Positions 5,622-43,909 of a stretch of 64,000 bases of DNA are shown piece by piece. A program made the translations under genes and the position numbers. This DNA comes from Rhizobium sp. AAP43 (GTDB lineage: Bacteria; Pseudomonadota; Alphaproteobacteria; Rhizobiales; Rhizobiaceae). Numbering within the stretch: position 1 is the first letter of the stretch; every line of letters starts with the position of its first letter. The stretch spans positions 1 through 64,000 of the forward strand of contig NZ_LJHS01000045.1 in NCBI RefSeq assembly GCF_001296045.1, in the 5' to 3' direction. The notes under the pieces were generated by a model. It ran no database searches. It worked only from the letters and a program-made list of their open reading frames with translations, and had not been told where the DNA came from.

Positions 5622-5784
5622 ATCAGCCTCGGTCCGCCGCATCCTTGCGGCAAATTCTGTCATAGCAGCGCATCCGGCATGACCGTTCTCATAAAGACTA
5701 TGCGCCAATCGCTGGAACTTGTAGTCGTTTTCGGGCAGGATAGGCAAATACAAAAGATATCAGAAGAATGGTCTGGGGGAGGTC

Positions 5785-7617
5785 ATGGACAGCACGCGCG
5801 AACACACCGACAGCGGCGCCGCCTTCGATCCCAAGCTGATCGAACCCTATATCGTCAAAGACCCGCAGGCACTGGCAATCAACGCGGCCAAGGCTCTGGA
5901 AAACCTTGGCAAGGCCGCATCCGTCTGGCTGAAGCCGCGCGAAAGCGGCGAGATCATCGACCCCGTGGGCGAGCCGGTGACCGAACTCACACGCACCTTG
6001 GGCAAGGTGGCCGAATACTGGATGTCCGACCCCAAGCGGACGCTCGAAGCCCAGACGCATCTGCTGAACGCCGTGTTTGGCGTCTGGAGCCGGTCACTTG
6101 CCCGATTCGCAGCACCGGAGGTGCCCGTCCCGGATCCGCTGCCGAAGGACAAGCGCTTCTCCGACGAGGATTGGGAGCGCAATCCCTTCTTTGACTTCCT
6201 GCGCCAGACCTATGTCGTGCTGTCGCAGTGGGCCGAAAAGATGGTCGACGAGGCCCAAGGCTTGGATGAACACACCAGACACAAGGCTGCCTTTTACGTT
6301 CGGCAAATCACCGCGGCGATGTCCCCCGCCAATTTCGTTGCGACCAATCCTCAGCTCTATCGTGAGACGGTAGCGAGCAACGGCGCCAATCTCGTCAAGG
6401 GCATGCAGATGCTCGCCGAAGACATTGAAGCCGGCGGTGGCGACCTCAAAATGCGCCAAACCGACAACAGCAAATTCGCCGTCGGCATCAACATGGCCGT
6501 GACACCGGGGAAGGTGATTGCCCAGAGCGATATCTGTGAGGTCATCCAGTACGAAGCGACGACCGAGACGGTGTTGAAGCGCCCTCTCCTCATCTGCCCG
6601 CCCTGGATCAACAAGTTCTACATCCTTGATCTCAACCCGCAGAAAAGCTTCATCAAGTGGTGTGTGGACCAGGGGCACACGGTCTTCGTCATATCCTGGG
6701 TTAATCCCGATGAGCGACACGCAGACAAGGGTTGGGAAGCCTATATTCGTGAGGGCGTCGATTTCGCGCTCGATACCGTGGAAAAGGCGACCGGGGAGAA
6801 ACAGGTCAACGCGATCGGCTACTGCGTCGGGGGAACACTGCTTGCGGCGGCACTGGCGCTGCATGCGCAGGAAAACAATAAGCGAATTGCAAGTGCAACG
6901 CTATTTACGACGCAAGTCGACTTTACCTATGCCGGCGACCTGAAGGTCTTTGTCGATGAGGGCCAGCTGACATCGCTCGAAGCCCGAATGCAGGAGAGTG
7001 GCTACCTGGACGGCTCGAAAATGGCGTCGGCCTTCAACATGCTGCGCGCCTCGGAACTGATCTGGCCCTATTTCGTCAACAACTACCTGAAGGGCCAGGA
7101 TCCGATGCCCTTCGACCTTCTCTTCTGGAACTCCGATTCGACCCGAATGGCCGCAGCGAACCACTCCTTCTATCTGCGCAATTGCTACCTCAACAACACG
7201 CTTAGCCACGGCAAGATGCAGCTGGCCGGCAAAACCCTGTCGCTGAAGGATGTAAGGATCCCGATCTATAATCTGGCAACCCGTGAGGACCACATAGCGC
7301 CGGCGAAATCTGTTTTCGTTGGTAGCAGCCTGTTTGGCGGACCAGTCGATTTCGTCCTCGCCGGCTCTGGTCACATCGCCGGCGTCGTCAATCCGCCGGA
7401 TAAAAACAAGTATCAGTTCTGGACCAACGGCTCGGCTGTCGGCAGCTATGAGGACTGGCTTGCCGAAGCGAAAGAGACTACCGGTTCCTGGTGGCCCCAC
7501 TGGCAGATGTGGATAGAAGCGCTCGACGACGCCCGCGTTCCAGCCAGAGCGCCAGGGGGCGGTGCACTCAATGCGATTGCCGATGCGCCGGGCGCCTATG
7601 TCATGGCCCGGGTCTGA
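5785..7617 (+). CDS. phaC: Class I poly(3-hydroxyalkanoate) synthase PhaC
   Basis: It polymerises 3-hydroxybutyryl-CoA into the storage polymer PHB on the granule surface. The 610-residue protein has the class I N-terminal region and an alpha/beta hydrolase core. The lipase-like box is GYCVGG with nucleophile Cys347, and the rest of the triad is Asp502 (ATREDHIAP) and His530 (GSGHIAGV). GGGGGAGGTC directly before the ATG is a very strong ribosome-binding site. It is divergent from the lipoprotein gene; sfsA begins 12 bases after its stop. The aminotransferase/phaC proximity is seen in other rhizobia. Confidence 0.96.
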   Translation: MDSTREHTDSGAAFDPKLIEPYIVKDPQALAINAAKALENLGKAASVWLKPRESGEIIDPVGEPVTELTRTLGKVAEYWMSDPKRTLEAQTHLLNAVFGVWSRSLARFAAPEVPVPDPLPKDKRFSDEDWERNPFFDFLRQTYVVLSQWAEKMVDEAQGLDEHTRHKAAFYVRQITAAMSPANFVATNPQLYRETVASNGANLVKGMQMLAEDIEAGGGDLKMRQTDNSKFAVGINMAVTPGKVIAQSDICEVIQYEATTETVLKRPLLICPPWINKFYILDLNPQKSFIKWCVDQGHTVFVISWVNPDERHADKGWEAYIREGVDFALDTVEKATGEKQVNAIGYCVGGTLLAAALALHAQENNKRIASATLFTTQVDFTYAGDLKVFVDEGQLTSLEARMQESGYLDGSKMASAFNMLRASELIWPYFVNNYLKGQDPMPFDLLFWNSDSTRMAAANHSFYLRNCYLNNTLSHGKMQLAGKTLSLKDVRIPIYNLATREDHIAPAKSVFVGSSLFGGPVDFVLAGSGHIAGVVNPPDKNKYQFWTNGSAVGSYEDWLAEAKETTGSWWPHWQMWIEALDDARVPARAPGGGALNAIADAPGAYVMARV

Positions 7618-16847: not shown

Positions 16848-17082
16848 CGCGAGCCTCCCCTCTTGTTAGGTTTGTTGTTCCACCAAGCAGCATGATTGGC
16901 AAGATTCGCAATGCGTGGCACTGGCGCTCAGCCCATACATCGGCGGCCAAGAGCCGAGGCGGCCCTCATGCAAACAGCGCATGCCTTCCATGATGATATT
17001 GCACTGCACAAAATTTGGCGTTCGCGTTACTGAAAGCATGACTGAGACGCGAAGAACATTAGTTCTGCCTCAGGAGAGTTTC

Positions 17083-17200
17083 AGGAAGCACGCTCCTCCT
17101 CCCAGTGCTTTTTGATCTGATCGATGACTACCTCCTCCCGGTTGTCGATCTTTACCAATGACGCCCACCGGTCCTCCTCCCCCGGTGGGCGTTATTTTTT
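17083..17200 (+). ncRNA. Small-RNA locus with three CCUCCUCCC hairpin loops (cuckoo/CcsR- or MmgR-like)
   Basis: Three consecutive hairpins each place the same 9-mer CCTCCTCCC (17095-17103, 17131-17139, 17173-17181) in the loop. Stem 1 is AAGCAC/GTGCTT (17086-17110) followed by TTTTT. Stem 2 is GATCGA/TCGATC (17119-17150). Stem 3 is an 11-bp GC-rich stem (17161-17192) followed by T6, a strong terminator. The loop sequence is complementary to the Shine-Dalgarno consensus. Loops of this kind are known in Rhodobacter CcsR (cuckoo) RNAs and in the Sinorhizobium MmgR/alpha-r8 RNAs. The 5' end and processing are not determined; hairpin 1 could end a separate short RNA. Confidence 0.72.
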
Positions 17201-17420
17201 GCTCACCTTTCCCCAAATACTGCGTTATCGAGCGGCGAGCCACGCGCAGGGAGACCATTTTTTCATCAGTTTACTCATGGTTAACTATTGAGCTATGCGA
17301 CGCACGCATGGTTGCTCTGATGCATTGGCTCTTCAATCGTTTCGCACCGCAGCATATATTCGGATCAACAAATTCGAACGCGGCCCACGATCGGGTCCAT
17401 CCACTGAAGAGGGTAACCCC

Positions 17421-17567
17421 ATGAACATCGCTCGCTCGCTCACCAACTGGCGCAAGTATCGTCAGACTGTTACCGAACTCGGCCGCATGTCGGACCGCGA
17501 ACTGCGTGACCTCGGCATCGGCCGCGAAGACATCCGTCGCGTTGCACGCAGCGCCGTCCACGGCTGA
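17421..17567 (+). CDS. DUF1127 small basic protein
   Basis: A 48-residue arginine-rich protein. It has the DUF1127 core: a W-x-x-Y-R segment followed by ELGRMSDRELRDLGIGREDIRR. DUF1127 proteins in alphaproteobacteria are stress-related, and some bind RNA or affect small-RNA maturation (CcaF1 in Rhodobacter). The ATG at 17421 has GAAGAGGG 7 bases upstream. The gene starts 220 bases after the CCUCCUCCC small-RNA locus and is followed by a strong terminator. Confidence 0.88.
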   Translation: MNIARSLTNWRKYRQTVTELGRMSDRELRDLGIGREDIRRVARSAVHG

Positions 17568-17606: not shown

Positions 17607-17641
17607 AAAAACCCCGGATCGCAATGCGTTCCGGGGTTTTT
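17607..17641. terminator. Bidirectional terminator between DUF1127 gene and nucleoside hydrolase gene
   Basis: AAAAACCCCGGA pairs with TCCGGGGTTTTT across an 11-base loop, with an A-run and a T-run at the two ends. It serves both convergent genes. Confidence 0.88.
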
Positions 17642-43544: not shown

Positions 43545-43743
43545 CGCCGTCCTCGTCTCGACGTCTGCTTTAGCGCGATGCTTGGCCGAAGCCAAGCGAC
43601 GAGATGCCGCGTGGGTATGGAAAGGCTAACCACCATTCAGCGATACTCCCGCAGGCGGCTATGGCGCTGACACGACAAAAATCTGCTCGTGAGCGACGCG
43701 CCCCCTTGCCAAGTCACCCCGCAACCGGATAATGCCGCCAAGA

Positions 43744-43909
43744 CCTTGTTGGGAGAAACCGGTTCAATCCGGTGCCGAAGGAGCAACCGCCCCGGAAACT
43801 CTCAGGCAAAAGGACCACAAGGCGTCGACTGCACTCTGGAGAGAGGCCCGTTTCCAACGCGGGCCAAGCCGAAGGGATAACAATCTCAGGCACAAGGACA
43901 GAGGGGGCT
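43744..43909 (+). promoter_or_regulatory. Tandem glycine riboswitch upstream of gcvT-gcvH-gcvP
   Basis: Two aptamers in series. The first (about 43748-43817) has GGGAGA, GCCGAAGGAGCAA, CTCTCAGGCAAAAGGACC. The second (about 43833-43909) has CTGGAGAGAGGCCCG, GCCGAAGGGATAA, TCTCAGGCACAAGGACAGAG. Both conserved boxes occur twice with a short linker between them, the classical glycine-sensing pair that turns on the cleavage system. Confidence 0.95.

Follow-up and report, generated by a model that had tools for sequence, protein, structure and literature searches.

The locus lies in the window, by which we mean the whole stretch of 64,000 nucleotides that was analysed, and consists of a small RNA with anti-Shine-Dalgarno (aSD) loops followed on the same strand by a gene for a small DUF1127 protein (Table 1). 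The family of the RNA, its structure and loops, the gene order, the boxes and their spacing can all be read from the sequence, and on this basis the RNA is of a known kind, a member of the alpha-r14/NfeR1 family (ar14). The DUF1127 gene named in an earlier note on this DNA was borne out by its match to PF06568, and a search of NCBIfam with the same 48-residue protein returned no family. An in-frame extension of the DUF1127 frame from 17295, giving 90 amino acids, was dropped because it overlaps the box and the -10 of the DUF1127 promoter. Behind the gene, an inverted repeat with a T-run separates it from a convergent nucleoside hydrolase gene.

Table 1. Features of the locus, with positions counted from the first letter of the window.
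Feature	Position	Strand	Remarks
LsrB/VtlR-type box of the RNA, TGCA-N6-GCAT	16969..16982	+	exact match
TTGCACTGCACAA element between box and -10	17000..17012	+	columns highly conserved among the 39 aligned orthologues
-10 place of the RNA promoter	17027..17034	+	genus consensus CTATATTC; diverged here
Predicted transcript of the RNA	17040..17200	+	approximate; start placed about 7 nt past the -10, box/-10 spacing compared with NfeR1
ar14 (alpha-r14/NfeR1 family) small RNA core	17076..17197	+	RF02344, 97.5 bits, gathering score 58.8, model 1-123 of 123
Hairpin 1	17081..17115	+	loop with CCUCCUCCC at 17095-17103; 3' arm with first T-tract, 17109-17113
Hairpin 2	17119..17150	+	CCUCCUCCC at 17131-17139
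Hairpin 3	17157..17196	+	CCUCCUCCC at 17173-17181; with T-run 17195-17200, likely intrinsic terminator
LsrB/VtlR-type box of the DUF1127 promoter, TGCG-N6-GCAT-N3-TG-N3-T	17296..17318	+	TGCG-N6-GCAT part at 17296-17309
-10 of the DUF1127 promoter, exact TATATT	17355..17360	+	59 nt past box start
DUF1127 gene, 48 aa	17421..17567	+	PF06568, E = 2.4e-16
Inverted repeat with T-run, terminator-like	17610..17641		by reading the sequence, unscored; absent from the list of the generic terminator scan

Three identical 9-base loops had been reported at this place, and the 9-mer CCTCCTCCC indeed occurs exactly at 17095, 17131 and 17173 on the forward strand, spanning 87 nt in all, with one copy in the loop of each hairpin. 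On both strands of the window together, 4 copies were counted; 100 shuffles had 0.70 on average, and as many as 4 turned up in 2 of them. Three hairpins make up the predicted fold of 17076-17200, whose energy of -52.9 kcal/mol (z -7.78) was matched by 0 of 200 shuffles; for the whole predicted transcript, the fold reaches -64.4 kcal/mol with a z of -6.56. The structure agrees with that of alpha-r14/NfeR1 as described in excerpts of PMC10746234, namely three hairpins with an ultraconserved CCUCCUCCC in each, the loops of that family being redundant in silencing. Like the founding member from Sinorhizobium meliloti, the window RNA matches the model over its full length, leaves CCUCCUCCC unpaired in three hairpins with variable, covarying stems and has an LsrB-type box upstream.

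Covariation was measured in an alignment of 39 orthologues from the genus (35 distinct rows). The stem cells were paired in 97.5% of cases and changes on both sides were found at 16 of 30 stem pairs, values that 0 of 500 shuffles equalled, in a test that is biased in its favour by a structure derived from the same alignment and in which a shift by 1-3 columns left 30-46% paired. The loops were kept as well, with three exact 9-mers in 30 of the 39 orthologues and two exact plus one altered in the other 9. Thus, a loss of loops from retained stems, which had been named beforehand as the pattern that would speak against the locus, was not seen.

The presence of two T-tracts had suggested either one RNA with three baits or tandem small RNAs. 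The first tract is paired within hairpin 1 and was seen, by eye, only in the present genome among the 39 aligned, so that only the T-run at the end of hairpin 3 looks like a terminator tail. Because the first tract sits in the stem of hairpin 1, and with a full-length ar14 match at hand, the single RNA with three baits is the version that holds and the tandem version falls away. A generic promoter and terminator scan found nothing at the locus; hairpin 3 is missing from its list, its rules allowing loops of at most 8.

The interpretation given in the earlier note is borne out in part. In a covariance comparison with known families, ar14 passes clearly, at 97.5 bits against 58.8, and the CcsR1 model RF02791 stays below its threshold on the window RNA, at 28.7 bits against a gathering score of 65.3. 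No other Rfam family reached its gathering score over the RNA; elsewhere in the window, a glycine riboswitch at 43740-43827 (+) and a cobalamin riboswitch at 36993-36625 (-) scored higher than their gathering thresholds. The claim of the same loops as in MmgR/alpha-r8 fails because ar14 alone passes and because MmgR, a 77-nt and Hfq-dependent RNA, carries the aSD motif in its first loop (as summarised in excerpts of the review PMC7143759). Both are small RNAs with an aSD motif, but the window RNA has three aSD loops and a core of about 122 nt and is set apart by description and by Rfam gathering score; an identity with alpha-r8/MmgR was accordingly dropped. In the case of AbcR1/ar15, an aSD-type RNA is again combined with an LsrB/VtlR box in the promoter, and in the present genome with the same spacing from box to -10, but the Rfam family is a different one and the genome has three separate AbcR1/ar15 copies.

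A second ar14 copy with a better score lies elsewhere in the genome (C8:101722, 114.8 bits), and the window RNA is a paralogue of this best NfeR1-like copy. Two weak ar14-like matches below the cut-off were also noticed, L003 at C4:196504-196622 (35.1 bits) and L004 at C23:60332-60442 (33.3 bits), the latter with two exact copies of CCTCCTCCC and the former with none. A copy above the cut-off is present in 40 of the 40 genus genomes examined; at the level of the order this is true of 29 of 199 genomes, the number with a match at E 0.001 being 63 of 199.

A further aspect of the locus is its gene order. In excerpts of PMC10253847, ccaF1 of Rhodobacter comes first and CcsR second, both belonging to a single operon that is described with an RpoHI/RpoHII promoter, and the CcsR RNAs (RS0680a) have two hairpins each (excerpts of PMC3927594). 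With CcsR1-4/ccaF1 of Rhodobacter sphaeroides the window shares the CCUCCUCCC loops and the DUF1127 neighbour. In contrast to the CcsR RNAs, which have two hairpins, lie in the 3' UTR of the DUF1127 gene and are described with an RpoH promoter, the window gene follows its RNA, which is not the order of a CcsR-type operon. This reversal had been pointed out from the sequence alone, and the comparison of gene order proposed along with it confirmed it as a kept feature of the genus.

Among the 122 ar14 copies above the cut-off in the 40 genus genomes, at least 57 have a DUF1127 gene within 2 kb. RNA and gene share a strand in all 57; the gene follows the RNA in at least 39 cases and precedes it in at least 18. 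Among the matches listed, 65 of the 122 copies have no DUF1127 neighbour. The RNA-then-DUF1127 order occurs in at least 39 of the 40 genomes, the exception being G016, an assembly that is 84% complete and split into 510 contigs. For the order, 29 of the 63 genomes that gave a match were represented by one locus each, including L182, which scores under the cut-off, and 4 loci that lack an exact 9-mer; DUF1127 lies in front in 23 of the 29, behind in 0, and 6 have none. In a sample of named genomes, where tandem RNAs of one locus were tallied separately and at least 5 non-alphaproteobacterial stretches were retained (Streptomyces, Bacteroidales, Acidimicrobiaceae, Lachnospiraceae, Hungatella), at least 133 triple-motif places were found in 120 stretches, with DUF1127 in front in at least 58 and behind in at least 11. 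Among the matches listed from this sample, no DUF1127 gene lay on the opposite strand and 64 places had none within 1.5 kb, 22 of these 64 being near the end of a stretch. The reversed places, at least 11 in number, come from 9 stretches, belonging to Rhizobium, Shinella, Sinorhizobium, Endobacterium and a Rhizobiales isolate. Based on these counts in the genus, the order and the named genomes, the reversed RNA-then-DUF1127 order is real and, as far as sampled, confined to part of the Rhizobiaceae; linked loci outside the genus are mostly DUF1127-then-RNA.

Some further arrangements were observed among the genus loci. Often the DUF1127 gene is followed, about 400 nt further on, by another one on the same strand (e.g. 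L203 and L192), and some loci consequently read RNA, DUF1127, DUF1127. Two genomes, G006 (L222 and L224, on one contig) and G015 (L237 and L238, on two contigs), hold paired, closely similar DUF1127-then-RNA units, and such similarity within one genome suggests recent duplication.

The linkage itself has a precedent. The association of DUF1127 genes with CcsR-like or cuckoo RNAs in alphaproteobacteria is known as the CIN1 locus (Reinkensmeier and Giegerich 2015, as cited in excerpts of PMC10253847). In agreement with it, a DUF1127 gene and a CCUCCUCCC RNA adjoin here on one strand; the window differs in its reversed order and in having two separate predicted promoters, although CIN1 is represented here by the citing sentence and may already include the reversed order.

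We now turn to the promoters. In S. meliloti, LsrB is reported to activate NfeR1 via TGCA-N6-GCAT at -72 to -60 (excerpts of PMC10746234), and an LsrB/VtlR consensus GCAT-N3-TG-N3-T is placed at -61 to -49 of the abcR1 promoter (excerpts of PMC8844928; the consensus also in those of PMC7486931). The exact TGCA-N6-GCAT in front of the window RNA continues to 16991 as GCAT-N3-TT-N3-T and is thus one letter off the published second half. As TGCA-N6-GCAT is common by chance (5 found in the window against 3.56 expected), the weight of this box rests on its conservation: allowing at most 1 mismatch, 38 of 39 orthologues have it within 260 nt upstream of the RNA, compared with 169 of 1482 control windows. 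The TTGCACTGCACAA element that follows has a similar counterpart, ACTGCACAA, in front of the abcR of the same genome. Compared with the LsrB box and sigma-70 promoter of ar14, the box is exact, yet the -10 at the expected place is poor, the best 6-mer in this genome being GTTACT with 3 mismatches to TATATT. The box also lies farther away, at 107 nt from the ar14 start, than in most search-derived copies, where this distance is 66-67 nt, and the DUF1127 gene behind the RNA is a further difference from NfeR1.

The promoter of the DUF1127 gene is more regular. Its GCAT-N3-TG-N3-T, at 17306-17318, falls at about -61 to -49 of the start deduced from the -10, which is the published position for the LsrB/VtlR regulon. 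Under a rule that allows at most 1 mismatch in the box, a -10 at 58-59 nt and at most 2 mismatches in all, box and TATATT-like -10 were found in the genus in front of all 39 DUF1127 genes that lie downstream of the RNA and of 17 of the 18 that lie upstream; the control for this rule is borrowed from the nearly identical rule of 57-60 nt, which none of 1187 windows satisfied and 6 of 4350 shuffles did. The full TG consensus is present in 27 of 39 and 8 of 18 of these promoters, with 0 of 1083 in the control. Before the RNAs, box and -10 at 57-60 nt occur in 25 of 39 orthologues, 12 of 18 DUF1127-then-RNA loci and 9 of 30 search loci, two of which (L028 and L030) duplicate loci of the other two classes. 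With 3 mismatches, these numbers rise to 32 of 39, 14 of 18 and 18 of 30, and the control to 4 of 1187.

In the named genomes, tandem RNAs again being tallied separately, boxes were counted by gene order among the matches listed. Of the 28 close DUF1127-then-RNA places, 18 have a box before DUF1127, and so do 16 of the 30 wider and 10 of the 11 reversed places. A box belonging to the RNA was present at 0 of the 28 close, 3 of the 30 wider and 8 of the 11 reversed places, and at 12 of the 64 that lack a neighbour. The spacing from box to -10 among at least 81 DUF1127 genes peaks at 59 nt (35 genes) and 58 nt (13), with at most 8 at any other spacing and a background of 7 in 5584 windows, in a test that is partly independent, as the rule was found in the genus and some named genomes belong to it. 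Altogether, many linked DUF1127 genes, in Rhodobacterales as well as Rhizobiales, show this box at this spacing.

Two observations were made alongside. In Rhodobacterales loci (e.g. L043, L108 and L123), the box before DUF1127 often reads TGCATTTGCTGCAT and is followed at 58-60 nt by -10 letters such as TATCTT, CATGTT or TAAATT, hinting at the same type of regulator with another sigma factor. In the present genome, near the end of contig C67 at 129849 (L277, 626-1150), another DUF1127 gene is preceded by a box and followed by a second box about 120 nt from the contig end, which looks like the remnant of a third RNA copy, in DUF1127-then-RNA order, truncated there.

Regarding the regulator, trxB, a LysR gene and abcR stand in this genome in the arrangement published for vtlR/lsrB, and by this gene order the LysR gene is a putative lsrB/vtlR orthologue; the abcR has the same box and the same spacing from box to -10. 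According to excerpts of the literature, VtlR of Brucella activates abcR2 and three DUF1127 genes (PMC12595884), and in Agrobacterium VtlR binds at the promoter of atu1667, which is orthologous to two of these three Brucella genes (PMC7486931). In the same excerpts of PMC7486931, a search of Agrobacterium with the authors' 15-bp consensus gave a single further site, vrsA, and the AbcR RNAs of S. meliloti are said not to be under LsrB, which excerpts of PMC8844928 contradict.

To look at possible targets, pairing with the loop was ranked over 53 mechanically chosen start regions of the window, a set in which first place went to a doubtful 79-residue frame and for which the DUF1127 gene was too short. 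With a median of -8.6, the start of phaC came second at -15.4, and in relatives the phaC pairing had a median of -14.8 (25 of 30 fetched loci with a start found, L244-L273). This makes phaC a candidate target and lends circumstantial backing to the proposed link with PHB storage, although it is not evidence of regulation, because an ordinary strong Shine-Dalgarno sequence explains the same energy. The phaC start region (window 5760-5790) has such a sequence, GGGGGAGG or GGGGAGGA, kept in the 25 of 30 relatives with a start found, and several of these relatives start with TTG or GTG. The known NfeR1 target ntrB paired here at -9.7, near the median, a value that decides neither for nor against it as a target in this genome. 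The DUF1127 mRNA as a target in cis was rejected, as its pairing is weak (-7.5 against the window median of -8.6).

We consider it probable that the locus produces an aSD repressor RNA and a DUF1127 protein that are transcribed separately here and switched on by one regulator. In this explanation, the locus would make a trans-acting small RNA of the NfeR1 family, and each of its three CCUCCUCCC loops would pair with Shine-Dalgarno regions and so block the translation of several mRNAs. The DUF1127 gene would form a transcription unit of its own, because the RNA ends at hairpin 3 with its T-run and the gene has its own promoter. Since both promoters carry an LsrB/VtlR-type LysR box about 58-59 nt from the -10, a single regulator of this type is expected for both and would activate RNA and gene together, and the DUF1127 protein may have an effect on the RNA like that of Rhodobacter CcaF1 on CcsR. 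Several points speak against this explanation: 14 of 39 orthologous RNA promoters fail the rule of 2 mismatches, the RNA -10 of this genome has its 3 mismatches, and ntrB pairs near the median. The many copies without a listed DUF1127 neighbour, the RpoHI/RpoHII promoter of ccaF1-CcsR, the single further box in Agrobacterium and the dispute on AbcR also weigh against it, as does the disputed binding of RNA by DUF1127 proteins; those of Agrobacterium act via the kinase PhoR (excerpts of PMC12501420).

The strongest competitor, which we hold to be possible though doubtful, is that the linkage reflects shared descent of neighbours, with RNA and protein having no working relation and both merely belonging to the LsrB/VtlR regulon. 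It is favoured by the lone copies (the 65 of 122 among the matches listed) and by the protein partner, PhoR, of the Agrobacterium proteins, but the pairing is met repeatedly, in either order and across several families, and CcaF1 affects the maturation of CcsR according to excerpts of PMC10253847. That the window RNA is a weakly expressed paralogue, the C8 copy being the working NfeR1 and the window copy minor in this strain, strikes us as unlikely. The lower score (97.5 against 114.8 bits) and poor -10 are consistent with such a silent copy, as is a report that only one of six copies in S. meliloti is reliably detected on northern blots (excerpts of the review PMC7143759). The three loops, stems and terminator are nevertheless intact, the locus with its covarying stems is kept in at least 39 of 40 genomes, and a good box with -10 is present in 25 of 39 orthologues. 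Even less is to be expected of a common transcript, in which hairpin 3 would be read through and RNase E would excise the RNA. Co-transcription and RNase E processing are published for ccaF1-CcsR (excerpts of PMC10253847 and PMC8625941), all of the linked genus copies (at least 57 of 57) share a strand, and the 28 of 28 close DUF1127-then-RNA places among the named-genome matches listed, with no box of the RNA's own, would suit an operon. In the RNA-then-DUF1127 order, however, a stable hairpin with a T-run intervenes, and the DUF1127 gene has its own conserved box and -10 in 39 of 39 loci.

Going beyond the single locus, we tentatively propose that CCUCCUCCC RNAs and DUF1127 proteins might be one old functional pair under LsrB/VtlR across Rhizobiales and Rhodobacterales. 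The ancestral form could have been a single transcript in the order box, DUF1127, RNA; in Rhizobiaceae, box and -10 would then have been copied to a place before the RNA, which would have allowed the pair to separate, to swap its order as at this locus or to leave RNA-only copies, all under continued co-regulation, and the DUF1127 protein might still mature or tune the RNA.

In conclusion, the RNA and its linkage to DUF1127 are of known kinds, and the locus is real and well conserved. What appears to be added, judging from the letters of the DNA, is the reversed and separately promoted arrangement together with a promoter plan of LsrB/VtlR type shared by RNA and gene. Among the publications searched, none mentions NfeR1 with DUF1127, or CCUCCUCCC with DUF1127. 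LsrB and DUF1127 occur together in three; going by excerpts, one of these names LsrB and another DUF1127 in a reference alone, and the third, on VtlR of Brucella, treats DUF1127 genes as targets of that regulator. In the excerpts compared, no description of the reversed order or the shared box was found; a prior description is possible, for example in the paper that defined CIN1. It is debated why translation-blocking RNAs travel with DUF1127 genes, and likewise whether RNA or protein is what DUF1127 proteins act upon (excerpts of PMC12501420). A common promoter plan would offer a simple reason for the linkage, namely shared control by LsrB/VtlR and not a shared transcript, and it leads to testable predictions about the small proteins and RNAs whose levels would increase jointly.
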